The notes: a model not told the origin generated them from the sequence alone. A stretch of DNA of 64,000 nt from an uncultured Alphaproteobacteria bacterium (GCA_951812805.1 CATOSZ010000008.1:200137-264136), one strand, 5' to 3'; shown: positions 38,768 to 59,723, numbered from the stretch's first letter. Program-made: numbers and translations.

Positions 38768-39529
38768 TCACTCGGACCGAACGTGTGCCGCGCCGTGGGC
38801 CTTGATGAAGCTGCGGACACGCACGATCGTGCGCGCCTTCAACGCCGGTGGTGCGGCCCAGGGAAACACCGTGATCTCCGCGTTCGGCGCCAGCGAGGCG
38901 ACGTCGATGGAGGTCTGTAGCGGGTGCGAGTCGATGTCGTCCGGCAGCACGAGGATGGGGGTTTCGCAGCCGCGCATGAAATCGCGCGTGACGCTGTAGA
39001 GAAAATCGGGATTCACCCGGTAGAGGTTGTGTAGGTATCGCTCGACGTCGTCCCGGTTCAGATCGGGCCGTTGGGGGAGCAACTCCGGCGCCCACACGTC
39101 GGTGCCTGAGCGATACATGACATCGGGGTCTTCCGGCCAATGCCCGACGCTCTGGCAGAACACCGCGGCGGTGACGCGTTCCGGCGCGCGTTCGAGCAGC
39201 GTTCCGGCGAAGCAGCCGCCGATGCAGTAGCCCATGTAGGCGAACCGGTCGATGCCGAGATGGTCCATCAGGCCGAGCTGGTCCTCGGCGAAGCCGCCCC
39301 AGGGATCGTCGATCGCCAGCGGTCCCGTGCTCTCGCCGCCGACGGCGTTGCGCTGATCCATGGTGATGCAGCGGAAGTCGTCCTTGAAGGCGTCCATCGC
39401 GTCGATCACCGCCCGCGGCCAGTTGTCGACGCGGGAGTTCAGGCCGCCGCCGGGTGTCACCAGTAGCGGGATGCCGCTGCCGACCTCTTCGTAGCGGATG
39501 CGGACGTCGCCTTTTTCATAGAACGGCAT
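38768..39529 (-). CDS. Alpha/beta hydrolase with Cys nucleophile
   Basis: Alpha/beta-hydrolase fold protein of 253 residues. The oxyanion region is LLVTPGGGLNSRVDNW. The nucleophile elbow reads MGYCIGG, so Cys replaces the usual Ser of G-x-S-x-G, as in dienelactone hydrolases. A late acid (LVLPDDIDSH) is visible, but the usual catalytic His near the C-terminus is not in a standard context. It follows the M81 peptidase gene by 33 bp on the same strand, probably in one operon. Confidence 0.8.
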   Translation of the reverse strand: MPFYEKGDVRIRYEEVGSGIPLLVTPGGGLNSRVDNWPRAVIDAMDAFKDDFRCITMDQRNAVGGESTGPLAIDDPWGGFAEDQLGLMDHLGIDRFAYMGYCIGGCFAGTLLERAPERVTAAVFCQSVGHWPEDPDVMYRSGTDVWAPELLPQRPDLNRDDVERYLHNLYRVNPDFLYSVTRDFMRGCETPILVLPDDIDSHPLQTSIDVASLAPNAEITVFPWAAPPALKARTIVRVRSFIKAHGAAHVRSE

Positions 39530-39562
39530 GAGGGTTCCTCCTTGCGGGCTTGGACGATGCGC

Positions 39563-41059: not shown

Positions 41060-41085
41060 GGTTCGGCCTCCCGAAATTTCGAACT

Positions 41086-41124
41086 AAAGAAAAAGGGGGC
41101 GCCCGCCGGCCGGCGGACGCCCCC
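41086..41124 (-). terminator. Intrinsic terminator after the binding-protein gene
   Basis: On the minus strand a GC-rich near-palindrome (GGGGGCGTCCGCCGG/CCGGCGGGCGCCCCC, arms at 41110-41124 and 41095-41109) is followed by TTTTTCTTT. It lies 16 bp after the binding-protein stop and 27 bp before the M81 start. It probably reduces transcription into the peptidase gene. Confidence 0.85.
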
Positions 41125-41396
41125 TCGGGTCTTGACGCCTTACTTCTTCCAGCGCGCGAACTGGAAGCGCGGCACCTCGTCGAGGCCCGCCTTCAGGTCG
41201 AGATCCTTGTGGTGGCCATAGAAGCGCTTCACGCCGAAGAAGGGCATCCAGTAGACCTGATCGATGATCCGGGCCTGCGCCTTCTTGTAGATCTCCGCCC
41301 GCATGACCGGGTCGACCGAGTCACGCGCCGTGTTCAGCCACTTGGACAGTTCCTCGTCGCCCGCGTAGTTGTTCGACGATTCCATGTCGAAGAAGG

Positions 41397-42605
41397 CAGG
41401 GCAATCGCATTTCAGAATTTGCCGAGGAGTGACAGGAGATAGTCGTTGTTCCAAGCGGCGATTTTGAACTTGGCGCGCAGCGAGTCTTTTCGTGGATCCT
41501 TTCGCATGACATTGAGCGCCATGTGGCGCAGGACGGCGAGATTGTGCGGTCCATTGTCCTTGCGGGTTCTGTCTTGGTCTTCGTTCATTTGGACATCGAG
41601 GCACCAGTGCAGGCGGTTTTCGACCCCCCAGTGCGCCCGGGCAACGGGATTGAAGCGCTCGGCGTCGAGCGGCTGGCTGAGCAGGTAGTAGGCGGTTTCG
41701 CTCGACGTCTTCTCCGCGCACTCGCGGGTCCGGGTGACTTTGGCGACCGCCTTCAGGCCCGGCCAATGATGGCGCTCTTGCAGCCACTCGACGTGGCTGG
41801 AGACGAGAGCGGCACGGGTCTCGATGCGGCCATGATCGCCATCGACCGTGGTGTCGGTGGTGGTCGCTTCGGCTTTCGGATCGTCGAGGAAGGTTCTCAC
41901 GTCGTCATGCAGCGTGCCTTGATTGCCCTTCAACGCCAGGGCGTAGTCACCCCCCTGCTCGATAATCTGGCTGGCGATGGCGCGCTGGCAATTGAGGGCG
42001 TCCACGGTCACGATCGTCCCCTCGAGGCTCAATAGTTTCAACAGCTTCGGCACGGCGGTGATCTCGTTGGACTTGGCGTCGGTGGCGACTTGCCCCAACA
42101 CCAGCCGCTGATCACAGCCCCAGGCCGAGACCATATGCAGCGCCGACGTGCCGCTCGCCTTGTCGTAGGATCGCCGCACCACCTTGCCGTCGATCGCAAT
42201 GACCCCTTGGCAGGTCTCGGAAAAGCGCGCCATGAAGCGCTGGAAGCAGGCGCCGAACGCCTCCGGATCCAGCAACCGGAACACCCGGCTGAAGGTGTCG
42301 TGGCTCGGCACGCCATGTTCGAGTACGAGAAATTCCCGCAGGAACGCCTCCTTTTCACGCGCGAAGATCGCCATGTCGACCGCCGTCTGACCGCCCGAGA
42401 GGACCGTGCACAGGGCGATCGTCAAGATCTCCAGCAGATCGTGACGCCCGGCATTGCCAGTCCGCGGATCCTCGAGACCCTCAAAGCACTCCAGAAAGCC
42501 TTCCATCGCAACCTCCACCCGTGAAAAGACCGGGTAGAATCGATTCGCGCCAATACCTCAAGATCAAACACGCACGTCAAGGCAATTCCAAATGCGATTC
42601 CCCTG
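41397..42605 (-). mobile_element. ISAs1-family element, copy 1
   Basis: The 1209-bp element has ends CAGGGCAATCGCATTT and, in reverse complement, CAGGGGAATCGCATTT. The 13-mer ATGTCGAAGAAGG flanks both sides exactly (41384-41396 and 42606-42618). ISAs1 duplications are usually 8-10 bp, so 13 bp is longer than normal, yet it restores the host frame. Copy 2 at 57309 has a 10-bp duplication. Confidence 0.92.
41412..42506 (-). CDS. ISAs1-family transposase, copy 1
   Basis: Intact DDE transposase of 364 residues: [20 protein letters not shown] at the start, core motifs VIAIDGKVVRRSYD, TIVTVDALNCQRAIA, LALKGNQG and VENRLHWCLDVQMNEDQ near the C-terminus. ATG 42506 follows GGAGG by 4 nt and is preferred to the GTG at 42518. 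Confidence 0.93.
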   Translation of the reverse strand: MEGFLECFEGLEDPRTGNAGRHDLLEILTIALCTVLSGGQTAVDMAIFAREKEAFLREFLVLEHGVPSHDTFSRVFRLLDPEAFGACFQRFMARFSETCQGVIAIDGKVVRRSYDKASGTSALHMVSAWGCDQRLVLGQVATDAKSNEITAVPKLLKLLSLEGTIVTVDALNCQRAIASQIIEQGGDYALALKGNQGTLHDDVRTFLDDPKAEATTTDTTVDGDHGRIETRAALVSSHVEWLQERHHWPGLKAVAKVTRTRECAEKTSSETAYYLLSQPLDAERFNPVARAHWGVENRLHWCLDVQMNEDQDRTRKDNGPHNLAVLRHMALNVMRKDPRKDSLRAKFKIAAWNNDYLLSLLGKF

Positions 42606-43928
42606 ATGTCGAAGAAGGGGAAGAGGATCGCGTCCGCATCGAAGATGTTGTAACTGCCCCAGTTGAAGTTGCCGATGCCGGTGATCTTACCGCCACGCCG
42701 GAGCTTGCCCATCTGCTGCGAGTTGCCGCGATAGTCCTTCAGGTTGATCTTGATGCCGACCTTGGAGAGCATCTGCATCGCGGCCTGGTTCGGCAGGTTC
42801 TGGTGGTCGACATACTGCCAGAGATCGATCTCGAAGCCGTTCGGATAGCCGGCGTCGGCCAGCAGCTTCTTCGCCTTCGCAGGATCGTAGTCGTACCATT
42901 TCACCGAGTCGTCATAACCGAAATGGTAGGGGCTCATCGGCGTGTCGACGCGGTAACCCTCCTCCTTCACCAGTTTGTCGACGATCTTGTTCTTGTCGAT
43001 CGCATGCGCGATGGCGCGCCGGACGCGGACGTCCTGAACCGGGCTTTCGCCCGCGCGGCCCCGGCTGTCGAACTGCCAGAAGTCGACCCGGATGATCGGG
43101 AAGTTCAACACACGGTAGTTGGGCTGCGATTCGAAAGCCGGGAGCTGGTCGAGCAGCAGGTTCAGCGCCACGTCGACGCCGCCCGAGAACAGTTCGGCCT
43201 GCCGGGTCGCGGCCTCCGGCACGATCTTGATGGTGACGTTCTCGATCGCCGGGACGTCCTTCAGCCAGTAGTTTTCGTTTTTCGCCAGGACGACCTTCGA
43301 GCCTTTCTGCCACTCGACCCACTTGTAGGGGCCGGAGCCCATGGCGTGTTCCTGGATGTACTGGAAGTCGTGCGCGCTGCCCCACTTCGGGCTCATGATG
43401 TAGAGGGTGTTCAGCCGCTCCAGCGTCGAGGCGTAGGGCGCGTGGGTGTGGATGCGGAACGTCGTGTCGTCGACGACCTCGACTTCCTTCACCCATTTGA
43501 AGTTGGAGAGCCGCGGTGACTTCTTCTCCTTATCGAGGATCCGGTCGTGCAGCGTGTAGCGGATCGCTTCGGCTGTAAGGGGGCTGCCATCGTGGAACTT
43601 GATATCGTCGCGGATCTTGAATTCCCAGGTCAGGTCATCGACGGTTTTCCAGGACGTCGCGACATGGGGCAGGATCTTGCCCGAGTCCGGATCGCGCAGC
43701 ACAAGCGGATCCCAGATCAGATAGCCCATCTGCAGCATTTGCCGCGCCGAGGTCTGATAGGGCTCCATCGTGTGGAACTTGCTCGGAAAGGCGATGTTCA
43801 TGGTATCGCGCGCCGCCAAGGCCTGGCCGGCCGCGCCCAGAACCGCTACGGCGGCGATTGCCGCGACGGTTCGCTTCCAGCGTAGTGACATAACTCTCCT
43901 CCCAAAGTGTCGTATATCGGAAGACTAG

Positions 43929-45472
43929 CAGCCTGTCGGACTCGGGCATGCAAGGATTGGTAAGATTGGCTTGGCGGGCGTCGATGTCATGGATTTACCC
44001 CCATGAAGTTGCGAACGCGGGTTGGCCCGCCCGTTCAGGCGTGGCTGAGGACGAACATCCGCTTGATGTTCCAGGAGAGCGTGGCCAAGGTCCATTCCCC
44101 CTTCGCCTTGTCGAGGCCGCGCAGGCTGAACTGACGCAAGCCCATCACCGATTTGATGATGCCGAACACCGGCTCCGGCGTCTGCTTGCGAAGCGCGTAG
44201 AGCGCCCGGCCCTCGGGTGTGGCCAGGCGATGGCACATCGCCTCGAGCGGCGTCGGATCCTCGGGCGCTGGCGGCGCCTCGGCGAAGCGGTCCCGCCAGG
44301 AAAGATGGTGGTGCTCCCGGCCGAGCGCGATCAGCGGCGCGATCTCCGCTTCCCCGCAGGCCTCGACGTTGGCCTGGCTGAAGTAGCCGCTGTCCGCCAA
44401 CAGGGTCTCGACCTCGCCAAGCCCGTCCGGCAGGCCGGCGAGTGCTTCGAGCGTCGGTTCGATCTGCTGCTTGTCGTTCGCCGCCTGCACCACGTCGGCG
44501 CTGACCACCAGCAGGCTGCCGGCGGCCACCGCAGCCTGGGCGTTGTAGCACTGCTCGAAGCCGCCGCCGGCCACCGGCATGATGCGCGAGTCCGGGTCCG
44601 TCAGGTTGACCTGGTCCTTCGCCCGTGGCCCCGGCTCCGGCGGCTTCGGTGGCCGCCCGCCCGGCTTGCGGCCGGTCCGCGTTTCCTTCGCCTCGCGGGC
44701 TGCCAGCTTCTCTTCGTACTCCGCCTGCTCCCGCGCATGACGCTCGGCCGCCCGCGCCTCGATCTCCGCCTTCGCCGCGGCGATCGCCGCCAGCCGGTCC
44801 TCGCGCCGTGCCAGCTCCTCCGGCACGCTCATGCCGTCGGGAACCTCGGACCGGTCCGCCGCTTCCGCCAACGCCATCAACTCCGCCACCTCGGCCCGCA
44901 GCCGGGCTTCGATCTCGCCCGCACGCTGCCACGACAGGGCGCTGTGCCGGCTCGCGTCGGCATGGATCTTCGTCCCGTCCAGCGCCACCGTGCCCAGTTG
45001 CAGCATGCCGGCCTGCCGCGCCAGCAGCAGAACCTGCACGAACAGCCCCTCGATCAGCGGCAGGAAGCGACGGCGGAACGTGGCGATCGTGTCGTGGTCG
45101 GGGTGGTCGTTTGCCGCGATGAAGCGGAAGGCCACCGAATCATAGCTCGCCCGCTCCAGCTTCCGGCTGGAATGCACCCCCGTCGCGTAGCCGTAGATCA
45201 GCAGGCCCAGCAGGACGCTCGGGTGATGCGCCGCCGAGCCCGAACCACGATAGGCCTTCACGAACGCAGAGAGATCCAGCTGCTCCAGCACATCGACCAC
45301 GAAGCGCGCCAGATGACGATCAGGCAGCCATTCGTCCACCGAAGGCGGCAGAAGATAGCTGGTCTCCCGGTCAACCTGTCGAAAGTTGCTCATCACAAAA
45401 TCACCGCGCAGGAGAGAATCAGACCGTGACAGTGAATCTCATCTCGAAACTCGGCTCAAGTCCGACAGGCTG
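43929..45472 (-). mobile_element. IS1182-family element in a CTAG target
   Basis: The 1544-bp element has inverted repeats CAGCCTGTCGGACT at 43929 and AGTCCGACAGGCTG ending at 45472. It is flanked by CTAG on both sides (43925-43928, 45473-45476), the palindromic 4-bp target known for IS1182 elements. It sits between the ATPase gene and the binding-protein gene of the peptide transporter and separates them. Confidence 0.93.
44035..45396 (-). CDS. IS1182-family transposase
   Basis: Intact 453-residue transposase. N-terminal domain SYLLPPSVDEWLPDRHLARFVVDVL, then the DDE core: LGTVALDGTKIHADASRHSA (first Asp), TLLADSGYFSQANVEA (second Asp), and YALRKQTPEPVFGIIKSVMGLRQF (Glu). A charged Ala/Glu-rich coiled-coil stretch (EIEARAAERHAREQAEYEEKL) and a GRKPGGRPPK linker separate the first and second acid motifs. 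Confidence 0.95.
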   Translation of the reverse strand: MMSNFRQVDRETSYLLPPSVDEWLPDRHLARFVVDVLEQLDLSAFVKAYRGSGSAAHHPSVLLGLLIYGYATGVHSSRKLERASYDSVAFRFIAANDHPDHDTIATFRRRFLPLIEGLFVQVLLLARQAGMLQLGTVALDGTKIHADASRHSALSWQRAGEIEARLRAEVAELMALAEAADRSEVPDGMSVPEELARREDRLAAIAAAKAEIEARAAERHAREQAEYEEKLAAREAKETRTGRKPGGRPPKPPEPGPRAKDQVNLTDPDSRIMPVAGGGFEQCYNAQAAVAAGSLLVVSADVVQAANDKQQIEPTLEALAGLPDGLGEVETLLADSGYFSQANVEACGEAEIAPLIALGREHHHLSWRDRFAEAPPAPEDPTPLEAMCHRLATPEGRALYALRKQTPEPVFGIIKSVMGLRQFSLRGLDKAKGEWTLATLSWNIKRMFVLSHA

Positions 45473-45513
45473 CTAGGGGGCGCCCGCAGGGCCCGCAAGG
45501 GATTCCGCGCCGG

Positions 45514-46536
45514 TTACCCTGCCGCGGCCACCCCCGCCCGGCCTTCGGCATCCGCCTCCGAAAGCCAGCATTTGCTGTAATGCGCCGGGTTCAGCTTGAA
45601 GAGCGGCGGCCGTTCCGTGTGGCAGCGCGCCATCGCCTGGCCGCAGCGCGCGGCGAAGGGACAGCCCGGATCGTAGTCGATCAGGTTCGGCACCGTGCCC
45701 GGAATCTCCTCCAGCGGCTGCTTGCCGCGGGTGAACTTCTCGCCGAGCCGCGGGATCGAGTTCAGCAGGCCGCGCGTATAGGGATGGCGCGGATCGTCGA
45801 ACAGCGTGTCAATGCCCAGCCGCTCGACCACCTCGCCCGCATACATGACGACGACGTCGTCCGAGGTCTCGGCGATGACGCCGAGATCGTGGGTGATCAG
45901 CATCATCGCCATGCCCATATCCTCCTGCAGCTTCAGCAGCAGGTCCAGGATCTGCGCCTGGATGGTGACGTCGAGGGCGGTGGTCGGCTCGTCCGCGATC
46001 AGCAGGCGCGAGCGGCAGGCGATCGCCATCGCGATCATCGCGCGTTGCCGCATGCCACCGGAAAACTGGTGGGGATAGTCGTCGACCCGGCTTTCCGGGT
46101 TGGGAATGCCGACCTGTTCCAGCATGTCGGTAGCACCCGCCCAGGCCTGCTCGCGGTTCATCCCCTCGTGGATCTGGAAGACCTCGGCGATCTGGTCGCC
46201 GAGGGTGTAGACCGGGTTGAGCGAGGTCATCGGCTCCTGAAAGATCATCGAGATCTCGCCGCCGCGGATCTTGCGCATCTCAGCCGGCGACAACGCAAGG
46301 AGATCGCGCCCCTCGAACATAATCCGGCCGTCGACGATGCGGCCCGGCGGATCTGCCACCAGGCGCATGACGGATAGCGCGGTCACCGACTTGCCGCTGC
46401 CCGACTCCCCCAGGATGCCCAGCGTGCGCCCCGGCATCAGCGTGAAGTCGACGCCGTCGACGGCGCGCACCACGCCCTCCGGCGTGTGGAAATGGGTCTT
46501 GAGGCCGGTGACCTCCAGGATCGGCGTCTCAGCCAT
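45514..46536 (-). CDS. Peptide ABC transporter ATPase, DppD/OppD type
   Basis: About 340 residues. Walker [10 protein letters not shown]-loop [10 protein letters not shown], signature FSGGMRQR, Walker [13 protein letters not shown] and H-loop THDLGV are all present. The C-terminal oligopeptide-transporter extension carries the Cys-rich motif [18 protein letters not shown] 46536 (MAETPILEV) overlaps the upstream ATPase gene by 8 nt; a start at 46551 is possible. It is the last transporter gene before IS1182. Confidence 0.93.
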
Positions 46537-47542
46537 GCTCGGCCTCGTCATAGAGATGGCAGGCGACCCAGTGATCCGGCTTCTCCTCGCGCATGCGGGG
46601 CCGCTCGCTCCGGCAGCGGGCGAAGGCCCGGGGGCAGCGGGTGTGGAAGCGGCAGCCGGACGGCGGGTTGATCGGGCTCGGCACGTCGCCGCGCACGACC
46701 TCCTTGCGCCGGCGCTTGGCGCCCGCTTCGGCCTTGGGTACGGCAGCGATCAGGGCCTGGGTATAGGGGTGCAGCGGGTCCTGGTAGAGGTTCCGGTCGG
46801 AGGCCGTCTCGACGATCTCGCCGAGATACATCACCGCCACCCGGTCGGCGATATGCTCCACCACCGAAAGGTCGTGGCTGATGAAGAGGAAGGAGAAGCC
46901 GAACTCCGCCTTCAGGGAATCCAGCAGGTTGACGACCTGCGCCTGCACCGAAACGTCGAGGGCGGAGACCGGCTCGTCGGCGATGATCAGGCGCGGCTGC
47001 AGGGCGAGCGCCCGGGCGATGCCGATGCGCTGGCGCTGGCCGCCGGAGAATTCGTGCGGATAGCGGTTCATATGGTCCGCCTGCAGCCCGACCTTGCCCA
47101 GCAGGTCCGCCACATAGGCGACCCAGTCCTTGTCGCCGGTGTGCAGGCGGTAGGCCTCGCCCACGAGCTCCTTGACCCGGAAGCGGGGATTGAGCGAGGC
47201 GAAGGGGTCCTGGAAGATGATCTGGATGTGTCGGCGGGCGCGGTTCAGCTCGTCCGTCTGCATGGCCATCAGGTCGCGGCCCTCGAACAGGGCCTCCCCC
47301 GCCGTCGGGGCGTAGAGGCGCAGCAGCAACCGCCCGACGGTCGACTTGCCGCAGCCGCTTTCGCCGACCAGGCCAAGGGTTTCGCCGCGCTGAATGGTGA
47401 AGTTGACCCCGTCCACCGCATGGACGTGGCCGACGGTGCGCTTCAACAGGCCCTTGCGGATCGGAAAGTACATCTTCAGGTCGCGGACCTCGAGGATCGG
47501 CCCGTCCGCCGTCGTCTCCGTCGTATCCATCGCCATTGCCAT
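46529..47542 (-). CDS. Peptide ABC transporter ATPase, DppF/OppF type
   Basis: 337 residues. Walker [11 protein letters not shown]-loop [14 protein letters not shown], signature FSGGQRQR, Walker [15 protein letters not shown] and H-loop SHDLSV are seen. The C-terminal part has [15 protein letters not shown], the Cys motif that may bind an iron-sulfur cluster in this group. It starts 5 bp after the permease gene, in one operon with it. Confidence 0.94.
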
Positions 47543-47546
47543 CGCC

Positions 47547-48467
47547 TCAGCCCTTGCGCAGGCGCGGGTCGAGCAGATCGCGCAGCGCGTCGCCGACCAG
47601 GTTGATGCCGAGGGCGGCGAGGAAGATGGCGGCGCCCGGCAGGGTCGAGAGCCACCAGACCGTCAGGACATAGGCGCGCCCCTCCGCCAGCATCACGCCC
47701 CAGGACGGCGTCGGCGGCTGGATGCCGAGGCCGAGGAAGCTGAGGAAGGTTTCGCGAATGATCGAGCGGGCGATCTCCACGGTAGCGATGACCAGCAACG
47801 GTGCTGCCAGGTTGGCGAAGATATGCTTGAAGATGACCCGCAAGTGGCCGAGGCCCTGGGCCAGCGCCGCCAGCACGTATTCCTGCTCGCGCAGCTTGCG
47901 CGTCTCGATCCGGGTAACGCGGGCGAAGATCGGCCAGTTCGAGATGCCGAGCGCCAGGATCACGTTCTCGGCCGAGGCGCCGAGGATGATCACCAGGGTC
48001 ATCGCCAGCAGGATGAAGGGGAAGGCCAGCATGGCGTTGACCGAGAAATCGACCAGGCTGTCGATCCAGCCGCCGAAGTAGCCGGCCAGCAGGCCGAGGA
48101 CGATGCCGATCACCGCGGAGACGACGACCGCCGAGACGCCGATCATCAACGAGACCCGGGCCCCGTAGACGATCCGGCTGTAGAGATCGCGGCCGAGCTG
48201 GTCGGTGCCGAGCCAATGATCGGAGGTGCCGCCAAGGAAACCCGGCAGTTCCAGCCGCGCGAGGATGTCCTGGGCATAGGGGTCGTGCGTCGCGATCAGC
48301 GGCGAGAACAGGGCCATGGCCACCAGGATCGCCAGCAGCAAAAAGCCGAAGACGCCCATGCGCAGCTGCCAGGCCTTGCGCAAAACCAGCAGCCAGATCG
48401 GCGCGCGACCGGCCTGCTTGTCCTGCCGCTCGGGCTCGATCCCGCCATTCGCCGTCGTGTCGACCAT
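47547..48467 (-). CDS. Peptide ABC transporter permease, DppC/OppC type
   Basis: 306-residue inner-membrane permease with an N-terminal helix ([20 protein letters not shown]), the typical periplasmic [21 protein letters not shown] segment, and the EAA loop region ([20 protein letters not shown]). ATG 48467 (MVDTTANGG) is chosen; the longer frame runs through the palindrome. The last membrane helix is followed by [14 protein letters not shown]. Confidence 0.93.
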
Positions 48468-48488
48468 GCGCGTGCTCTCTAGTCCATG

Positions 48489-48586
48489 GGCCCGGCCGGC
48501 CCGCTCCCCCGTCCCAACCACCCGTGGAGTGTACCCTTGGGGTGCCCTGGGGGGTGGTTGGGACGGGGGAGCGGGCCGGCCGGGCC
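48489..48586. repeat. 35-bp perfect palindrome between permease genes
   Basis: The arms 48489-48523 and 48552-48586 are perfectly complementary over 35 bp (outer part GGCCCGGCCGGCCCGCTCCC, inner part CCAACCACCC). They are separated by 28 nt that hold a smaller hairpin (ACCC/GGGT). The structure lies in the 142-bp gap between the two permease genes of one operon. It could be a terminator, an mRNA stabiliser or a dispersed palindromic repeat. No target repeat is visible. Confidence 0.85.
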
Positions 48587-48609
48587 GCCATCATTCATGA
48601 TGGCCACCA

Positions 48610-49530
<921 letters not shown>

Positions 49531-50349: not shown

Positions 50350-50895
50350 ATGGCCCGTGTTCCCGTCTTGAAGACACCCGAAGACCTCACCGGCGACGCC
50401 CGCGCCATTGCGGAGGGGATCGTCGATACGCGGAAGTCCCTCGATGGTCCCTTTTCGGTCTGGATGCACGCCCCGGCGTGGGCCGAACGGGTCGCGCATC
50501 TGGGCACGCTGGTGCGTTGGGAAGGGACGCTGGCGCTGCGCATTCGCACGCTCGCCGCGCTCGTCGTCGGGCGGCACTTCCAGGCCCAGTATGTCTGGGG
50601 CATCCAGGGCGTGATCGGCGCCGAGCGGGACATTCCCCGCTCGACCATCGATGCCATTCGTGACGATGGCTCCGAGGGCATTCCGCCGGAGGATCTGCAG
50701 ATCATCGATTTCACCCGACAATTGCTGCGGCGGAACCGCGTCGAGGAACCGCTGGCGCAAGCGGTCATGGCGCGGTTGGGGACGGACGAATATGTGCAGC
50801 TGACGACCTGCATCGGCTACTACGCGATGCTGGCGATGACGGTGAACGGCGCCGAGTTGGAGCCCGACCCGGCGCACGAAGCCCTGGAGGTTTGA
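50350..50895 (+). CDS. Carboxymuconolactone decarboxylase-like protein without CxxC
   Basis: 181-residue all-helical protein of the CMD/AhpD-like fold, seen from the order VPVLKTPEDLTGDARAI, HLGTLVRWEGTL, LALRIRTLAALVVGRHF and the late TTCIGYYAMLAMTVNGAELEPD. The CxxC pair of peroxidase-type members is absent (AQYVWGIQGVIG at that position). It is thus closer to decarboxylase-type members. It probably works with the acyl-CoA synthetase gene that starts 19 bp downstream. Confidence 0.75.
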   Translation: MARVPVLKTPEDLTGDARAIAEGIVDTRKSLDGPFSVWMHAPAWAERVAHLGTLVRWEGTLALRIRTLAALVVGRHFQAQYVWGIQGVIGAERDIPRSTIDAIRDDGSEGIPPEDLQIIDFTRQLLRRNRVEEPLAQAVMARLGTDEYVQLTTCIGYYAMLAMTVNGAELEPDPAHEALEV

Positions 50896-50914: not shown

Positions 50915-52477
50915 ATGAGGCCCATCGATTTCTTCGATGCCGGACACGACATGGCCCCCGATGCCGTCTGCCTGGTCGACGACGTGGCGGGGCGCGAGCT
51001 GAGCTACGCCGACGTCCGCGAGCTGACGCTCAAGGCCGGGAACGGGATCCGGGCGGCGGGCCTGGCGCCGGGCGCGCGGGCCGCCGTGCTCTCCATCAAC
51101 GATTCCATCGCCTTCGTTGCCGCGCTGTCGTTCTTTCGCGCCGGCCTGGTCTGGGTGCCGATCCATCCCGGCAATGGGCTGGAGGAAAACATTCACGCGC
51201 TCGGCGATTTCGGCTGCGAGGTGCTGTTCTATCACGGCGGTTTCGAGGACCAGGTCGCGGAGATCCGCCGGGCCTTGCCGGCGATCCGCCTCGTCGTCCG
51301 CATCGACGGCCCGGGCGCCGATGCGCCGGCTTTCGACGATTGGGTGCGGGCGTATCCGGCCGACGAGATCGACACGGCGGACGAGCCGGGGTTGCTGGTC
51401 TCGGTGCAGCCGACGGGCGGTACCACCGGGCGCTCGAAGGGGTCGCGGCATACCTACCGCGGCTTCGAAGCCTTCATCCTGACCAACCTCGCGGTCACCT
51501 CCTACGGTGACGAGCCGCCCGTCTATCTCGCCGCGGCGCCGATGACGCACGCCGGGGGTTACATCTGCTTCACCATTCTTGCCCGCGGCGGCCGGATCGT
51601 CGTGCAGCCGAAGATCGAACCGGACCGCTTCCTGGCGGCCATACCAAAGTACCGGGGCTCCGCCCTGTTCCTGCCGCCGACGGTCATCTACCTCCTCCTT
51701 GCGCGCCCGGACGTTCGCGAGGTGGATTATTCCTCGCTCCGCCATTTCATCTACGGCGCGGCGCCAATGTCGTCGGAAAAACTGCTGGAGGCGATCGAGG
51801 TCTTCGGCCCGGTGATGACGCAGATGTTCGGCCAGACGGAATGTCTGTTCCCGGTCACCTACATGTCGCCCGGCGACCATGCCCGCGCGGTCGCGACCAA
51901 CAACCGCAAGCCGCTCGCGAGCTGTGGGCGTCCAGCGCCCTCCTGCCGGCTGGCCATTATGGACGAGGCCGGGGTACTGCTGCCGGTGGGCGAGACCGGT
52001 GAGATCGTCGTCCAGACGCCGATGATGATGGAAAGTTACCACAACGACCCGGCGCTGACGGCCGAGACGGTGGTCGACGGCTGGCTGCATACCGGCGACA
52101 TCGGCTACCGCGACGCGGACAATTTCTACTACATCGTCGATCGCAAGAAGGACATGATCATCACCGGCGGCTTCAACGTCTTCTCGGCCGAGGTCGAGCA
52201 GGCGGTCATGGCCCATCCGGCGGTGCAGGAATGCGTCGTCGTCGGCGTCCCGCACCCGAAGTGGGGCGAAGAAGTGAAGGCCGTCGCCGTCTTGCGCCCG
52301 GGCGCCGCGGCCGGCGAGGACGAGATCATCGACCTTGCGAAGGAAGCGGTCGGCTCGATCAAGGCGCCGAAGAGCGTCGATTTCGTCGACACGCTGCCGC
52401 GCAGCAATACCGGCAAGATTCTCAAACGCATCGTCCGTGAGAAGTACTGGTCAGATACCGACCGCCAGGTGAACTGA
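50915..52477 (+). CDS. AMP-forming acyl-CoA synthetase
   Basis: 520-residue ANL-superfamily ligase that activates a carboxylic acid with ATP and couples it to CoA. Motifs: P-loop PTGGTTGRSKGS, A5-like MFGQTECLF, A7 HTGDIGYRD, A8 hinge DRKKDMIITGGFNVFSAEVE and the C-terminal catalytic Lys in NTGKILKR. The acid substrate is not predictable. It meets the dehydrogenase gene tail to tail with a 14-bp gap. Confidence 0.92.
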   Translation: MRPIDFFDAGHDMAPDAVCLVDDVAGRELSYADVRELTLKAGNGIRAAGLAPGARAAVLSINDSIAFVAALSFFRAGLVWVPIHPGNGLEENIHALGDFGCEVLFYHGGFEDQVAEIRRALPAIRLVVRIDGPGADAPAFDDWVRAYPADEIDTADEPGLLVSVQPTGGTTGRSKGSRHTYRGFEAFILTNLAVTSYGDEPPVYLAAAPMTHAGGYICFTILARGGRIVVQPKIEPDRFLAAIPKYRGSALFLPPTVIYLLLARPDVREVDYSSLRHFIYGAAPMSSEKLLEAIEVFGPVMTQMFGQTECLFPVTYMSPGDHARAVATNNRKPLASCGRPAPSCRLAIMDEAGVLLPVGETGEIVVQTPMMMESYHNDPALTAETVVDGWLHTGDIGYRDADNFYYIVDRKKDMIITGGFNVFSAEVEQAVMAHPAVQECVVVGVPHPKWGEEVKAVAVLRPGAAAGEDEIIDLAKEAVGSIKAPKSVDFVDTLPRSNTGKILKRIVREKYWSDTDRQVN

Positions 52478-52491
52478 GCGGGCCGTCGCGG

Positions 52492-53328
52492 TCAAAGCCG
52501 GCGGATGAAGGCCGGCCAATAGGCCTCGCCGTCGCCCGCCTCCAGACTGGCCGCCAGGCGCCGGCGGGCGAGCGCGAGGCCGTCGAGGTCCAGGCCGAGG
52601 TCGGACCGCAGACGTTCGAGATAGTCGAGGTCCTTGGCCATGTAGCGGGTGGGGAAGCGGCCCTCGGGAAAGTCGTCGGCCAGCAGGGCGCCGATGCCGT
52701 GCTGGCGGAGCGCGAAGCTGTCGGCGCCATCGGCCAGGGCGTCGAACAGGGTCGTGCCGTCGACGCCCGCCGCCCGCGCGGTCACCAGCGCCTCGGCCAG
52801 CGCGCCGACCTCCTGCGCCAGCACCATGTTCAACAGCAGCTTGACGGTGATGCCGGCGCCGATGCCGCCGCAATGGCGTACCGTCCCGGCCATGGCGCGG
52901 AGCGGCGCCTCGATTGCGGCAAAGACCTCGGGCGCGGCGCCGACCATCAAAGTGATGTCGCGGTTTTGGACGCTTTGCGCGGTGCCGGCGATCGGGGCTT
53001 CCGCCATGGCGACGCCGCCGTCCGCCAGCCGTTCGGCGAGCTCGCCCGCCAGGCCCGGCGGCGCGGTGGAACAATCGACCAGCACGGCGCCCGCTGTCAT
53101 ATGGTTTGCCAGCTCGTGGACCGTCGCGCGGATCTCCGCTTCGCCCGGTAGGACAAGGAAGATCACCTCGCTTCCCGCGAGGTCGCCAAGGCGGGCGGCG
53201 GGAGTGGCGCCGACCGGTACGCGCGCGATGTCGAGGTCGTGCGCCATAACGGTGAAGCGACCGTCTTCCACCAGGTGGCGGCACATCGGCCCGCCCATGA
53301 CGCCGAGCCCGACGAAACCGATCCGCAT
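52492..53328 (-). CDS. 3-hydroxyisobutyrate dehydrogenase-like oxidoreductase
   Basis: 278-residue beta-hydroxyacid dehydrogenase. The NAD(P)-binding motif is IGFVGLGVMGGPMCRHLVE, the substrate-binding motif DCSTAPPG, then EAPIAGTAQSVQNRDITLMVGA and the catalytic Lys in GAGITVKLLLNM. ATG 53328 is the natural start; an extended frame upstream overlaps the next gene. It starts 2 bp after that gene's stop, so the two are surely cotranscribed. Confidence 0.9.
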   Translation of the reverse strand: MRIGFVGLGVMGGPMCRHLVEDGRFTVMAHDLDIARVPVGATPAARLGDLAGSEVIFLVLPGEAEIRATVHELANHMTAGAVLVDCSTAPPGLAGELAERLADGGVAMAEAPIAGTAQSVQNRDITLMVGAAPEVFAAIEAPLRAMAGTVRHCGGIGAGITVKLLLNMVLAQEVGALAEALVTARAAGVDGTTLFDALADGADSFALRQHGIGALLADDFPEGRFPTRYMAKDLDYLERLRSDLGLDLDGLALARRRLAASLEAGDGEAYWPAFIRRL

Positions 53329-53330
53329 GC

Positions 53331-54311
53331 TCAGACCACCCGGCGCTCGAGCTTTTCCGCCATGTGGCCGCCGGCGAGGATCGGCGGGTATTTTGGTGCC
53401 GCGCCCGGCGCGACGCAGCCGGGCAGGGCGGCGACGACCGTGTCGAAGTTCGGGTGCAGGAAAAAGCCCATCGACTGCCGCCGCGCGCCGTCCGCCAGGG
53501 CCTCCGGCGGGTTGACGACCCGGTGCAGGGTCGAGCGCCAGCGGTCGTTGGTCCAGCGCGACATCATGTCGCCGAGGTTCACGACCAGGGTGCCCGGTGC
53601 GGGCCGAACATCGCGCCAGCCGTGCCCGGGCATCTCGACCTGCAGGCCGCCCGGCGCGTCGTCGATCGCCAGGATGGTGAGCGAGCCGAAATCCGTATGC
53701 GCCCCGCAACGGACCTGTTCGGGCGCCCGCTCGCGGGGCGGTGGCGGGTAGTGGTTGGAGGGCAGGGTGGAGAAGTGATGGTCGATCTTGTCGTCGAAGA
53801 ACCGCTCCTCCAGGTCAAGCGCGAGGGCGAAGATCCGCATGAGGGTGCCGGCCAGGCCCTCCATCTCGCCATAGAGCCGGCGCATCGCCGGTTCGTAGTC
53901 GGCCGGCGCGTCGGGCCAGAGGTTGGGACCGTAGAACTTGGCCGCCCCCGCGACCTCGGCGAAGTGCGCCCGCTCGTCGATCAGAGGGCCGATGAAGAAT
54001 TGCTCACGCAGGTCCGGCGGCGCATCGTGGCCTAGAGTCCGGGCAAGGCTCTTGGAGGCGAAGCCTGTGTAGCCGCGCGGCACGCTGGGATCGCCGGGCG
54101 CATGCCGCCGCTTCTCGGCCAGCGGCAGGTCGAAGAAGGCGCGGCTGGCGGCAAAGCCGTCGCGGATCGCCGCCGCCGCCACGCCATGGTTGGCGATGAC
54201 GAGAAAGCCGATCTCCGCGCAGGCCCGCCCGACCTCGCGCGCCACGGCCGCCTTGCCGGCCTCGCCACCGTCGAAATAGGGCGCCAGGTCGATGACGGGG
54301 ATCTCGTCCAT
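53331..54311 (-). CDS. 2-oxoglutarate/Fe(II)-dependent oxygenase (IPNS-like)
   Basis: 326-residue oxygenase of the isopenicillin N synthase type. The N-terminal IPVIDLAPYFDGG and GFLVIANHGV are family hallmarks. The iron triad is His and Asp in CGAHTDFGSL and His in STLHRVVNP, and the RxS motif that binds 2-oxoglutarate is RRQSMGFF. It is likely to hydroxylate or desaturate the pathway substrate. It follows the aldolase gene by 1 bp. Confidence 0.92.
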   Translation of the reverse strand: MDEIPVIDLAPYFDGGEAGKAAVAREVGRACAEIGFLVIANHGVAAAAIRDGFAASRAFFDLPLAEKRRHAPGDPSVPRGYTGFASKSLARTLGHDAPPDLREQFFIGPLIDERAHFAEVAGAAKFYGPNLWPDAPADYEPAMRRLYGEMEGLAGTLMRIFALALDLEERFFDDKIDHHFSTLPSNHYPPPPRERAPEQVRCGAHTDFGSLTILAIDDAPGGLQVEMPGHGWRDVRPAPGTLVVNLGDMMSRWTNDRWRSTLHRVVNPPEALADGARRQSMGFFLHPNFDTVVAALPGCVAPGAAPKYPPILAGGHMAEKLERRVV

Positions 54312-54312
54312 C

Positions 54313-55074
54313 TCAGTCCCGGTAGCTCGGGTCGCGGGCGTCCATCAGCCGCTGAAACGCCGCGAAATCCTCCTCGCCCGCACCCTTGGTGCCGTAGGCG
54401 GTGACGTAGTCGTCCGTGCCCTTGACCGTATAGGCGGCGGCCTCGGCAGAAGTCTCGACCAACTCCGTCGCCCCGGCGGCGACCTGGATCTCGCAGGCCT
54501 TGTTCAGCCGGTACATCCACACGAAGGCTTCCGCCACCGTGCGCCCGACGGTCAGCAGGCCGTGCGCGCGCATGATCATCGCCTTGTTGCCCGGCCCCAG
54601 GCTTTCGGCCAGGCGGTCCTGTTCGGCGAGGTTGTGCTTGCCGCTCGCGCCCTCGAACTCGTGATAGCCGAGCCGGTCGTGAAAGCCGAGGGCGAACATG
54701 TTCGAGGGCCTGAGGCCTGCCGCCTGGCTCGCCACCGCCATTCCGGGCAGCGTGTGGGTATGCATGACGCAGTGCGCGTCCTCGCGCCGCATATGGATGG
54801 CGGAGTGGATGACGAAGCCGGCCTCGTTCAGGGGATTGTTGGTGGCACCGCCGACCACCTTGCCTTGCTGGTCGACCTTGAGCAGGTCGGACGCGCGGAT
54901 CTCATCGAAACGCACGCCGAAAGGATTGATCAGAAAGTGATGCTCGGGCCCCGGCACCCGCATGGAGGTGTGGGTGTTGAACGAGTCTTCCCAGCCCAGA
55001 TGGGCGTTGATGCGAAAGGCGCAGGCGAGCTCGACCCTGAGGTCCCGTTCCGCCTGGCTGATCGCCCCGGCCAT
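54313..55074 (-). CDS. Class II aldolase/adducin-family protein
   Basis: 253-residue protein related to fuculose-phosphate aldolase. Zinc-binding His residues are seen in MHTHTLPG and MRAHGLLTVG. N-terminal LACAFRINAHLGWEDSFNTHTSMR matches the adducin-like group. It is likely to cleave or decarboxylate a small hydroxy acid in the same pathway as the P450. Start ATG 55074, 13 bp after the P450 stop. Confidence 0.9.
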   Translation of the reverse strand: MAGAISQAERDLRVELACAFRINAHLGWEDSFNTHTSMRVPGPEHHFLINPFGVRFDEIRASDLLKVDQQGKVVGGATNNPLNEAGFVIHSAIHMRREDAHCVMHTHTLPGMAVASQAAGLRPSNMFALGFHDRLGYHEFEGASGKHNLAEQDRLAESLGPGNKAMIMRAHGLLTVGRTVAEAFVWMYRLNKACEIQVAAGATELVETSAEAAAYTVKGTDDYVTAYGTKGAGEEDFAAFQRLMDARDPSYRD

Positions 55075-55087
55075 GGCGAGCGGCCGC

Positions 55088-56317
55088 TCAGGCGACGGGA
55101 AAGCGGATCGGGATGGTACGGGGGCCGCGGACCTGGCCGGCCGACCAGGTGACGGCGTCGGGATCCGACAATTCGAACTCCGGCAGCCGCTGCATGAAGA
55201 CCCTGAGCGCCACGTCCATTTCCATCCGCGCGAGGTTGGAGCCGGCGCAGCGGTGATGGCCGATGCCGAAGGCGACGTGGCGGTTGCGCTCCCGGTCCAT
55301 GACCAGCTCGTCCGGGCGCTCGAACACGTCGGGGTCGCGGTTGCCGGCGGGGAAGTTCAGGATCAACTTGTCGCCGGGATGCATGGTGACGTCGCCGAAA
55401 CTGATCTCTTCCGTCACCTTGCGGGCCATCATCACCGGGCCGTAGAAGCGCAGGAATTCCTCGATCGCGGTCGGAAACAGCTCCGGCTCGTTTACAAGGC
55501 GACGGCGGTCGTCCGGGTTGCCGGCGAGATGCCAGAGCGCGGCGCCGATCGAACTCCAGGTCGTATCGATGCCGGCGACCAGCAGCAGGTTGCAGATGCC
55601 GATGACCGTATAGTCCGAGAGCGGCTCGCCCTCGATCTCGGCGGCGATCAGCTGCGAGATCAGGTCGTCGCCGGGGTTGGCGCGCCGCTCGGCGACCATG
55701 TCGGCGAAGAACTGGCGAATGATCCGGCGGTAGCGGCTGCGCAGTTCGGGCTGCGTCTGGCCGAACTCCAGCACCCCTTGGGTCCATTCCGTGAAGTCGT
55801 CGGCCCGGCTCATGTCGATGCCGATGACGCGGGCGATGACGCGCGGCGGAATTTGCTGCGAATACTGCCGGGCCGCATCGGCCGAGCCTTCGGCGATGAA
55901 GGCGTCGATCAGGTCGTGGCAGAGCTGTTCGGTAAAGGCGCGGTGCGATTCCGTCGCATCCGGCGTGAAGAACGGCAGGATCAACCGCTTGTAGGGCAGG
56001 TGGCCCGGCGGATCCATGGTGATCGGCGGGTTCTCGCTGCCGTAGGCCTTGACCTCGGCGATCAGCTCCTCGCGCAGTTCCGGGTCCGGCGGCACCACCG
56101 CGACCGAGCGGGAGGAGAGCGCCGGCACCGCGCGCACCATGTCGCGCAGGTCGTCGTACTTGGTCGCCATCCAGGCCCCGCCCATCCGGGTTGTGTGGGC
56201 GATCGGACAGCGCTTCTGCAGATCCTCCCAGACCGGGGTCGGATCGGCCATGTAGCCTTCCTCGAAAAGATCGAAGTCGGTGGCCCAGTCCTCGACGGGG
56301 CGTTGATCGTTATCCAT
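55088..56317 (-). CDS. Cytochrome P450
   Basis: 409-residue soluble bacterial P450. The I-helix has AGIDTTWSSIG (acid-alcohol pair), the K-helix ExxR is in EEFLR, and the heme loop is FGIGHHRCAGSNLAR. It resembles small-molecule hydroxylases such as the CYP101/111-like group. The ferredoxin gene directly upstream is likely its electron donor; no reductase gene is in the cluster. Confidence 0.94.
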   Translation of the reverse strand: MDNDQRPVEDWATDFDLFEEGYMADPTPVWEDLQKRCPIAHTTRMGGAWMATKYDDLRDMVRAVPALSSRSVAVVPPDPELREELIAEVKAYGSENPPITMDPPGHLPYKRLILPFFTPDATESHRAFTEQLCHDLIDAFIAEGSADAARQYSQQIPPRVIARVIGIDMSRADDFTEWTQGVLEFGQTQPELRSRYRRIIRQFFADMVAERRANPGDDLISQLIAAEIEGEPLSDYTVIGICNLLLVAGIDTTWSSIGAALWHLAGNPDDRRRLVNEPELFPTAIEEFLRFYGPVMMARKVTEEISFGDVTMHPGDKLILNFPAGNRDPDVFERPDELVMDRERNRHVAFGIGHHRCAGSNLARMEMDVALRVFMQRLPEFELSDPDAVTWSAGQVRGPRTIPIRFPVA

Positions 56318-56339
56318 GGACCGGACTCCTCGATTTAGG

Positions 56340-56552
56340 CTAGTTCTCGACTACTTCGATGGCGAATTCGGGGCAGTTGGCGATCGCGAGCCGCGCCTTC
56401 TCGATATCCTCCGGCGCCACATGGCCGTCGTTCGCGGCCGTGGCGTTGCCGAATTCGTCGAGGTCGAACAACGCCGCCGCCACCGCCTTGCAGCGATTGT
56501 GGCCCTGGCACTTGTCCGGATCGACCCGGATTCTAAGACGTCGTTCGCTCAT
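56340..56552 (-). CDS. P450-linked ferredoxin (CxxHxxC...CP type)
   Basis: 70-residue ferredoxin. Cluster ligands are Cys15, Cys21 and Cys60 in the pattern C-x2-H-x2-C…C-P. The second ligand position holds His18 (DKCQGHNRC). This variant is common in single-cluster ferredoxins next to P450 genes, where it usually holds a 3Fe-4S or His-ligated 4Fe-4S cluster. ATG 56552 is preferred; an extension of eight residues is less likely. It ends 22 bp before the P450 start. Confidence 0.9.
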   Translation of the reverse strand: MSERRLRIRVDPDKCQGHNRCKAVAAALFDLDEFGNATAANDGHVAPEDIEKARLAIANCPEFAIEVVEN

Positions 56553-56610
56553 CTCGCGCGATCCTTCCCGCAACACTGGTCGCGCATAGTAGCGAGTTCC
56601 CGCCCGCCGC

Positions 56611-57153
56611 TCAAAGGGGAAGGTCGGGGGCGTCGCACGTCGTCATCACCGCACCGCCCTTGGGCGCCAGGAAATCCGGCCAGATGGCGTTGTGGTGGGC
56701 CATGATGGCGGGCGCGTCGAGGTGCGGGCGATCCCGCGTCGTATGCCCGTCCGCCGGTACCACCGTCGACCAGCTGCGCCCGAGCGCGCTGCGGATGGTG
56801 GTGTCGACGCAAAAGTCCGTCGCGCTGCCGGTGACGATCAGCCGTGCCGGCGCCAGCGCCTCCAGCAGCGCGTCGAGCCGCGTGTGCAGGAACGAATCGC
56901 AGCTCGACTTGCGCACGATCTCGTCCCCGGCCTCGACGTCGAGGCTCGGCAACAGCGCCCAGCCGGGCCGCTCGGGGTGGTGTGGATCGTCCTCCGGCCC
57001 GTCGTGCTGCACGTAGATCACCCGCCCGCCCGCGGCCCGCACCCGGCCCGACAGCCGGTTCAACCGCGCGACCAGCCCCGCCGCATCGTGCGGCCCGGGC
57101 GTGCGGTCGAAGGACCCGACCTGCATGTCGATGATGATGAGCGCGCTTGCCAT
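56611..57153 (-). CDS. Isochorismatase-family cysteine hydrolase
   Basis: 180-residue cysteine hydrolase. The triad is visible: Asp in IIIDMQVGSF, Lys in IVRKSSCDSF and Cys in GSATDFCVDTTIRSA. The cis-peptide motif before the Cys is kept. It may hydrolyse an amide or ester product. The gap to the ferredoxin is 58 bp, so it may belong to the P450 cluster as its first gene. The 155 bp between it and ISAs1 copy 2 (57154-57308) show no gene. Confidence 0.9.
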   Translation of the reverse strand: MASALIIIDMQVGSFDRTPGPHDAAGLVARLNRLSGRVRAAGGRVIYVQHDGPEDDPHHPERPGWALLPSLDVEAGDEIVRKSSCDSFLHTRLDALLEALAPARLIVTGSATDFCVDTTIRSALGRSWSTVVPADGHTTRDRPHLDAPAIMAHHNAIWPDFLAPKGGAVMTTCDAPDLPL

Positions 57154-57995
57154 CTCGCCTCTCCTCTCCGCCGGCCGGCAGTGTCGACCGGGGCGCGCGG
57201 GCGATCAAGGGGTGGGCTCGCTATCGATGATCGCCCGGGAACCCGAAGCCGTTGAGCGTGCTCTCACGGGCTGAGCGCGACAGCGACGAGCCGCCGCCCC
57301 CGCCCGGGCAGGGCAATCGCATTTCAGAATTTGCCGAGGAGTGACAGGAGATAGTCGTTGTTCCAAGCGGCGATTTTGAACTTGGCGCGCAGCGAGTCTT
57401 TTCGTGGATCCTTTCGCATGACATTGAGCGCCATGTGGCGCAGGACGGCGAGATTGTGCGGTCCATTGTCCTTGCGGGTTCTGTCTTGGTCTTCGTTCAT
57501 TTGGACATCGAGGCACCAGTGCAGGCGGTTTTCGACCCCCCAGTGCGCCCGGGCAACGGGATTGAAGCGCTCGGCGTCGAGCGGCTGGCTGAGCAGGTAG
57601 TAGGCGGTTTCGCTCGACGTCTTCTCCGCGCACTCGCGGGTCCGGGTGACTTTGGCGACCGCCTTCAGGCCCGGCCAATGATGGCGCTCTTGCAGCCACT
57701 CGACGTGGCTGGAGACGAGAGCGGCACGGGTCTCGATGCGGCCATGATCGCCATCGACCGTGGTGTCGGTGGTGGTCGCTTCGGCTTTCGGATCGTCGAG
57801 GAAGGTTCTCACGTCGTCATGCAGCGTGCCTTGATTGCCCTTCAACGCCAGGGCGTAGTCACCCCCCTGCTCGATAATCTGGCTGGCGATGGCGCGCTGA
57901 CTAGGTTCAGATAGATGTGAGACGCGCCTCTGGCGGCAGAGGCGGGGATCTCCGAAGCTGTGAGTTGCGAGACCAACAGCTTGAAGGAGATCCCC

Positions 57996-59003
57996 ATGCA
58001 GGTTTTTGGCCTGCCCCGACATGTTATCAGGGGTTGGAGGACGGCGTCGCGTCTGAACGCGGAGCCCGACACTAAATGCGTAGCGTTCAGACGCGACGCC
58101 GTCCGGCGTTGGCATCGGGCCCGGCGTGACGGCTTGACGGCCGAGGCGGCGGCCCAGGCGGTGGGCGTGCCGCGTAGCACGCTCTATCGCTGGGACGAGC
58201 GGTTGGAGCCGCGCTCGCGCGCGCCTCGCCGCCGTCGTCGCCGAGAGTGGTCGAGTGCGGTGCTGCGTCGGCTTGAACGGCTGCGCCGCGACTTCCCGAT
58301 GTGGGGCAAGGCCAAGCTCGGACCGCTGCTGCGCCGAGAGGGCTTCACCTTGTCGGACAGCACCGTTGGTCGCATGCTCGCCCATCTGGTCGCGCGCGGC
58401 GTCGTTGTGCCGGTGCCCGTGGCGCGACGACGCGCCAAGGGCAAGAGAGCCAAGCGCCCACACGCCAAGCGTTTGCCGAAGGGGATGAAGGCAACGGCCC
58501 CCGGCGATCTGGTCCAGCTCGACACCTTGAGCATCACGCCGGCCGGCGAGCGCACGGTCAAGCAGTTCACCGCCTACGATCCCGTCAGCCGCTTCACCTG
58601 TGCCAAGGCCTTCCGCAGAGCGACCGCCAGGAACGCCGAGAGCTTCCTCGACAAACTCGTGGCCGACCTGCCCTTCCCCGTGAAGGCCATCCAGGTCGAC
58701 GGTGGATCCGAGTTCATGGCCGAGTTCGAGGCCGCCTGCGAGAGCCGAAAGATCCCCGTCTATGTCTTGCCGCCGAGGACGCCGCAGCTCAATGGCGGCG
58801 TCGAGCGAGCCAACGGCGCATGGCGCTACGAGTTCTACGCCTGCCATGACATCGAGGACCAGCTCGACAAACTAAACCCACAGATCGACAAGTTCGCCAA
58901 CATCTACAACACCTTCAGGCCTCATGGAGCCTTGAAAGGCAAAACCCCCGAGGAGTACCTTCGACAGATCACAGCCAAGAAGACCTCGTCGTCTCATATG
59001 TAG
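57996..59003 (+). CDS. IS481-family transposase
   Basis: 335-residue integrase-like transposase starting at ATG 57996 (MQVFGLPRHV), with AAGGAG upstream. N-terminal helix-turn-helix (GLTAEAAAQAVGVPRSTLYRWDE), then the rve core with LVQLDTLSITP (first Asp), KAIQVDGGSEF (second Asp) and QLNGGVERANGAWR (Glu). It ends KKTSSSHM. It is intact, so this copy may still be mobile. Codons for about residues 15-37 lie in a long hairpin. Confidence 0.93.
   Translation: MQVFGLPRHVIRGWRTASRLNAEPDTKCVAFRRDAVRRWHRARRDGLTAEAAAQAVGVPRSTLYRWDERLEPRSRAPRRRRRREWSSAVLRRLERLRRDFPMWGKAKLGPLLRREGFTLSDSTVGRMLAHLVARGVVVPVPVARRRAKGKRAKRPHAKRLPKGMKATAPGDLVQLDTLSITPAGERTVKQFTAYDPVSRFTCAKAFRRATARNAESFLDKLVADLPFPVKAIQVDGGSEFMAEFEAACESRKIPVYVLPPRTPQLNGGVERANGAWRYEFYACHDIEDQLDKLNPQIDKFANIYNTFRPHGALKGKTPEEYLRQITAKKTSSSHM
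58039..58104. repeat. 22-bp perfect inverted repeat inside the IS481 transposase gene
   Basis: The arms 58039-58060 (GGACGGCGTCGCGTCT…) and 58083-58104 are perfectly complementary over 22 bp with a 22-nt loop, starting 43 nt into the coding sequence. The stem is very stable in RNA and could slow ribosomes or form a cruciform. See findings. Confidence 0.9.
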
Positions 59004-59723
59004 TGAACCTGGACACGCGCTGGCAATTGAGGGCGTCCACGGTCACGATCGTCCCCTCGAGGCTCAATAGTTTCAACAGCTTCGGCACGGCGGTGATCTC
59101 GTTGGACTTGGCGTCGGTGGCGACTTGCCCCAACACCAGCCGCTGATCACAGCCCCAGGCCGAGACCATATGCAGCGCCGACGTGCCGCTCGCCTTGTCG
59201 TAGGATCGCCGCACCACCTTGCCGTCGATCGCAATGACCCCTTGGCAGGTCTCGGAAAAGCGCGCCATGAAGCGCTGGAAGCAGGCGCCGAACGCCTCCG
59301 GATCCAGCAACCGGAACACCCGGCTGAAGGTGTCGTGGCTCGGCACGCCATGTTCGAGTACGAGAAATTCCCGCAGGAACGCCTCCTTTTCACGCGCGAA
59401 GATCGCCATGTCGACCGCCGTCTGACCGCCCGAGAGGACCGTGCACAGGGCGATCGTCAAGATCTCCAGCAGATCGTGACGCCCGGCATTGCCAGTCCGC
59501 GGATCCTCGAGACCCTCAAAGCACTCCAGAAAGCCTTCCATCGCAACCTCCACCCGTGAAAAGACCGGGTAGAATCGATTCGCGCCAATACCTCAAGATC
59601 AAACACGCACGTCAAGGCAATTCCAAATGCGATTCCCCTGCCCGCCCGGGCTGGCCCGCTGGGCGCCGGGCTGCTATACCGCCGCCGTCCCGGCGCGCGC
59701 GCCGCTTGCGGGAGGTCCCGGAC

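Follow-up and report, generated by a model that had tools for sequence, protein, structure and literature searches.

The 64,000-nucleotide stretch from an uncultured alphaproteobacterium analyzed here (the window) carries on its minus strand closely spaced genes for a cytochrome P450, a ferredoxin, a 2-oxoglutarate (2OG) oxygenase, an aldolase-fold protein, a dehydrogenase, and a cysteine hydrolase. Is this run one undescribed system, as a sequence-only reading had proposed, with oxidation and side-chain cleavage followed by CoA activation, or were its genes joined locally? Judging from sequence and genome comparison, our verdict is that it is a real operon-like run of ordinary parts, without comparative support as one system.

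Layout of the six-gene run

The six ORFs are intact and are read on the minus strand from 57153 to 52492 in the order hydrolase, ferredoxin, P450, aldolase-fold protein, 2OG oxygenase, dehydrogenase, and Pfam agrees with the families named beforehand for this set. The genes of the run and its two convergent neighbors are as follows.

56611..57153, minus strand: isochorismatase-fold cysteine hydrolase, first gene in the run (Pfam Isochorismatase, 4e-28)
56340..56552, minus strand: 70-aa [3Fe-4S]-type ferredoxin, CxxHxxC...CP (Pfam Fer4_15, 1e-13)
55088..56317, minus strand: cytochrome P450 (Pfam p450, 7e-25)
54313..55074, minus strand: class II aldolase/adducin-fold protein, NCBIfam PRK07044 (Pfam Aldolase_II, 3e-45)
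53331..54311, minus strand: IPNS-type Fe(II)/2-oxoglutarate oxygenase (DIOX_N, 6e-26, and 2OG-FeII_Oxy, 3e-20)
52492..53328, minus strand: beta-hydroxyacid dehydrogenase, HIBADH-like (NAD_binding_2, 8e-27, and NAD_binding_11, 7e-17)
50915..52477, plus strand: acyl-CoA synthetase, convergent neighbor (AMP-binding, 6e-60)
50350..50895, plus strand: CMD-family protein, convergent neighbor (Pfam CMD in homologs)

In gene order, the intergenic gaps are 58 (hydrolase to ferredoxin), 22, 13, 1, and 2 bp; given the first of these, the spacing of 1–22 bp originally ascribed to the whole set is limited to its last five genes. The tight gaps among those five, the single strand, and the intact motifs nevertheless count for the operon-like run that had been supposed. 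The GC pattern of all genes in the run is that of the neighboring genes. No sigma-70-like promoter was found at the run and terminator-like sites there were near shuffle level, both being weak tests in a GC-rich organism.

The acyl-CoA synthetase and CMD genes are present and convergent on the set, as described, but they are not co-directional with it: the stop codons of the synthetase (52477) and the dehydrogenase (52492) lie on opposite strands with 14 bp between them. In other genomes, orthologs of the synthetase (69–71%) have a class III aminotransferase gene and a phosphotransferase-like one as neighbors, and a 79% relative of the CMD protein in another genome lies elsewhere, without these genes. 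Both are probably part of a separate transcription unit. The proposed CoA activation would rely on the opposite-strand synthetase gene with its different partners. The label of CMD-fold protein is supported through homologs, five of six of which match Pfam CMD (best 5e-9), the window protein itself having no such match.

Two conserved gene pairs

The P450 has the motifs FGIGHHRCAG and AGIDT, and the solved P450 closest to it by sequence is P450cin (CYP176A1; 6e-74). The redox partner of P450cin is the flavodoxin cindoxin, whereas the window P450 is paired with a [3Fe-4S]-type ferredoxin, and its substrate cannot be inferred from P450cin. The ferredoxin carries CQGHNRC at position 15 and CP at position 60 of its 70 residues, the motif of [3Fe-4S] partners, and its top PDB match (4id8, 3e-20) is a His-motif ferredoxin of Rhodopseudomonas palustris HaA2 (PMC6237146). 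Ferredoxins with CxxHxxC...CP are described [3Fe-4S] partners of P450s in many bacteria (PMC6237146, PMC9868604), and their combination with a P450 is common in secondary metabolism (PMC6237146). The His-variant ferredoxin of the run is of this already known type. The arrangement of a small His-motif ferredoxin beside a P450 resembles the pairs of M. marinum Fdx1, 5, 8, and 10, R. palustris HaA2 4ID8, and M. tuberculosis Fdx and FdxE-CYP143 (PMC6237146, PMC9868604). It differs from them in the family of the P450 and in the extra enzymes that follow in the run. Among the P450-bearing loci collected, the ferredoxin gene adjoins the P450 gene at 34, and the two are 22 bp apart in the window. On this comparison, we regard ferredoxin and P450 as a real, conserved, and older two-gene unit with predicted electron transfer.

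Searches with the P450 returned 13–15 matches per genome in six same-family genomes, suggesting that this P450 group has expanded in the lineage. At four loci, a gene for an F420-type luciferase-like oxidoreductase (TIGR03619, an assignment tested on one of the four copies) lies directly upstream of ferredoxin-P450, and at another locus the P450 is instead preceded by a TauD-like gene.

The 2OG oxygenase has the HxD...H metal triad (HTD at 205, H263) and the RxS motif (RQS at 278), and the triad is kept in all seven aligned sequences. The dehydrogenase has the Rossmann motif GLGVMG and the catalytic-lysine motif GAGITVKLLLN expected of the HIBADH superfamily; no NCBIfam equivalog matched it at its cutoff. 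Of 14 genomes in a different alphaproteobacterial family, five carry the closest homolog of the oxygenase (57–58%), and exactly these five also carry that of the dehydrogenase (51–54%). In four of the five they are adjacent and in the same order, the dehydrogenase directly 3' of the oxygenase, with a spacing of about 17–26 bp in three genomes and about 270 bp as called in the other; in the fifth, the two are on separate contigs, each at the contig's end. The pair was recovered by a tblastn count of loci and by a codon-based gene caller. A beta-lactamase-fold serine hydrolase gene comes after the homologous pair, and its remaining company varies (a branched-chain-type ABC transporter, a CoA-transferase-like gene, molybdenum hydroxylase or hydantoinase-like genes). 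Beside the pair in these genomes we found no P450, ferredoxin, or close aldolase-fold or isochorismatase-fold relative. The shared order and adjacency suggest that oxygenase and dehydrogenase, too, are a real, conserved, and older pair.

Oxygenase relatives at 46–52% identity often lie among nucleobase-, hydantoin-, and molybdenum-hydroxylase-type genes and NMT1/THI5-like binding proteins, most of these neighbors being named from sequence starts and the representatives alone confirmed by Pfam. Because of this company, an N-heterocycle or a related acid may be taken as a reasonable guess at the substrate, no more. The best solved matches include thymine dioxygenase and an ethylene/succinate-forming enzyme. 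The window protein shares its fold and its metal and 2OG motifs with IPNS-type bacterial 2OG oxygenases, including thymine dioxygenase-like ones, but its gene stands behind a P450 and an aldolase-fold gene, in contrast to those near nucleobase or hydantoinase genes.

Two other pairings were seen among relatives. Dehydrogenase relatives (38–47%) often adjoin a gene for a TcuA-like flavoprotein (12 loci, at about 39–47%), which is another conserved pair without obvious explanation. Since the window has no TcuA gene near the dehydrogenase, tricarballylate metabolism was not adopted as a reading. At four loci, a paralogous 2OG oxygenase gene lies directly behind an NMT1/THI5-like binding-protein gene with stop and start overlapping, a further conserved pair in that lineage.

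The aldolase-fold and hydrolase genes

The aldolase-fold protein passed the NF005451 cutoff (292.7 bits against 207) and by its sequence matches resembles the class II aldolase/adducin clade PRK07044 (relatives 3ocr, adducin, TqaM, and NovR), a clade with no assigned reaction in NCBIfam. Its metal-site residues His105, His107, and His171, equivalent to the zinc ligands His92, His94, and His155 of FucA, are invariant. FucA-type sugar-phosphate aldolases combine these histidines with Glu73. In the alignment with E. coli FucA, the Glu73 position is Gly in the window protein and its close relatives, unlike in FucA-type aldolases, and the protein is therefore not assignable to the sugar-phosphate aldolases. 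The description as a class II aldolase was thus borne out for fold and family (Pfam, NCBIfam) but not for activity, being a predicted fold name only. Because the catalytic Glu is missing, the side-chain cleavage step of the original proposal found no direct support. Cleavage may be one option among several, and the class II aldolase-fold relatives in NCBIfam include decarboxylases and dehydratases. Relatives at 63–78% identity occur in six same-family genomes, in differing surroundings.

The hydrolase has the D and C motifs of its fold and scored 52.9 and 35.8 bits against the biuret hydrolase and RutB equivalogs, below their cutoffs of 370 and 378, respectively. Its relatives in five same-family genomes (58–64%) belong to varying clusters with amidase, acyl-CoA synthetase, acyl-CoA dehydrogenase, and amidohydrolase genes, and never stood beside a P450. 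The closest relatives of the hydrolase, the aldolase-fold protein, and the synthetase are thus in different neighborhoods each, which counts for local assembly.

Probable local assembly and its alternatives

The full six-gene set turned up in none of up to 96 relatives, nor in 367 alphaproteobacteria or in 39 P450 relatives (from 85k species genomes). Most gene pairs of the set never co-occurred in these relatives, and none of the relatives had more than two of the genes together. Apart from ferredoxin-P450 and oxygenase-dehydrogenase, only the aldolase and dehydrogenase genes co-occurred, about 8 kb apart at two loci, in a tblastn count of the loci gathered to that point; a search across the class, with the aldolase and oxygenase as queries against 367 genomes, gave no further linkage among the loci examined. 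Many of the relatives are fragmented MAGs, whose flanks have a median of just a few kb, and no second sequenced member of the source genus is in the collection; this comparison therefore supports the absence of the full set well at the level of the family rather than the genus. Most of the genes therefore behave independently in relatives, the two pairs excepted, and the claim of one undescribed system was not upheld. Plasmid homologs of the aldolase-fold protein, 2OG oxygenase, P450, and dehydrogenase were all below 60% identity; plasmid relatives were considered and rejected. Of three plasmid contexts, two had no usable annotation and the third had a short P450 ORF and a dipeptide transporter in the vicinity of an aldolase-fold gene.

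We think it reasonably likely that the run is a lineage-specific, probably co-transcribed catabolic operon, made up of two older two-gene oxidation modules and recruited aldolase-fold and hydrolase genes. What is new, as far as comparison can tell, is the joining of the genes; the parts are ordinary. Because the comparison resolves two older gene pairs and two single genes joined in this lineage, the operon is probably local rather than a widespread undescribed system. Our best reading is that it would act on a carboxylate or N-containing compound. Going by the families, a reductase encoded elsewhere would supply electrons through the predicted [3Fe-4S] ferredoxin to the P450, and the P450 would hydroxylate the first substrate. 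The conserved pair suggests that the 2OG oxygenase would hydroxylate a carboxylate or N-containing intermediate and that the dehydrogenase would oxidize the new alcohol. More tentatively, the aldolase-fold protein might remove a one- or two-carbon unit or act as a decarboxylase or dehydratase, and the hydrolase might split an amide-type bond. It is doubtful that the operon encodes an undescribed pathway in which the P450 and the 2OG oxygenase work one after the other on a single substrate, with the aldolase-fold protein as an unusual non-FucA lyase or decarboxylase between them and the conserved oxygenase-dehydrogenase pair as a core that other lineages combine with other first-step oxidases.

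A conserved pathway of oxidation, cleavage, and CoA activation that takes in all six genes with the synthetase and CMD genes, and is kept in unsampled lineages, seems unlikely. The tight spacing and the source organism's place as the sole member of its genus in the collection are in keeping with it. So is the literature: as the sequence-only reading had stated, we found no match to a named pathway, and in the open-access papers searched none combining a P450, a class II aldolase, an IPNS-type oxygenase, and HIBADH, no paper among them having five of the six terms. Against it stand the limit of two genes together in any relative, the opposite strand and different partners of the synthetase and CMD genes, and the missing catalytic Glu of the aldolase-fold protein.

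The genes might instead have become neighbors by IS-driven rearrangement without sharing a pathway, which we consider quite unlikely. The region is indeed rich in insertion sequences: 18 kb of it hold two ISAs1-type copies plus two more transposase genes, and relatives of the genes live apart. The two ISAs1-type copies, presumably of that family from recognition of the transposase sequence, are placed as follows.

41397-42605: ISAs1-type copy 1, splitting a dipeptide/nickel-type ABC operon within its substrate-binding protein gene
57309-59640: ISAs1-type copy 2, identical to copy 1, between the hydrolase gene and hisB

Copy 2 has a further insertion sequence inserted in it between 57899 and 59016. 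Each copy is bordered by a flanking repeat of its own (13 bp, ATGTCGAAGAAGG, for copy 1 and 10 bp, CCCGCCCGGG, for copy 2); they are therefore separate insertions that do not bound the set as a composite transposon, and we rejected that origin. The six-gene run has no internal insertion sequence, and in bacterial operons gaps of 1–22 bp are difficult to arrive at unless co-expression is under selection, both of which argue against coincidental packing. The dipeptide/nickel-type ABC transporter operon itself (38768-49530, minus strand) runs on to encode an M81 (MlrC-like) peptidase as well as an alpha/beta hydrolase, and at 44035-45396 this transporter region holds one more transposase gene.

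A natural-product tailoring cluster in place of catabolism could be suspected from the P450 with its His-motif ferredoxin and from the 2OG oxygenase, 2OG oxygenases being common tailoring enzymes, but it is very improbable, as the ORFs noted near the run include no synthase, NRPS/PKS, or resistance gene and the nearest homologs lie among transporter, hydantoinase, Mo-hydroxylase, amidase, and aldehyde dehydrogenase genes.

Returning to the probable locally assembled operon, the best lead in it comes from the conserved pair of 2OG oxygenase and dehydrogenase, a small and directly testable unit without assigned substrate. If the operon is one route, it would show how an uncultured, IS-rich alphaproteobacterial lineage makes a new oxidative pathway by combining two-gene modules that already existed; otherwise, it would be one of many accessory oxidative operons.
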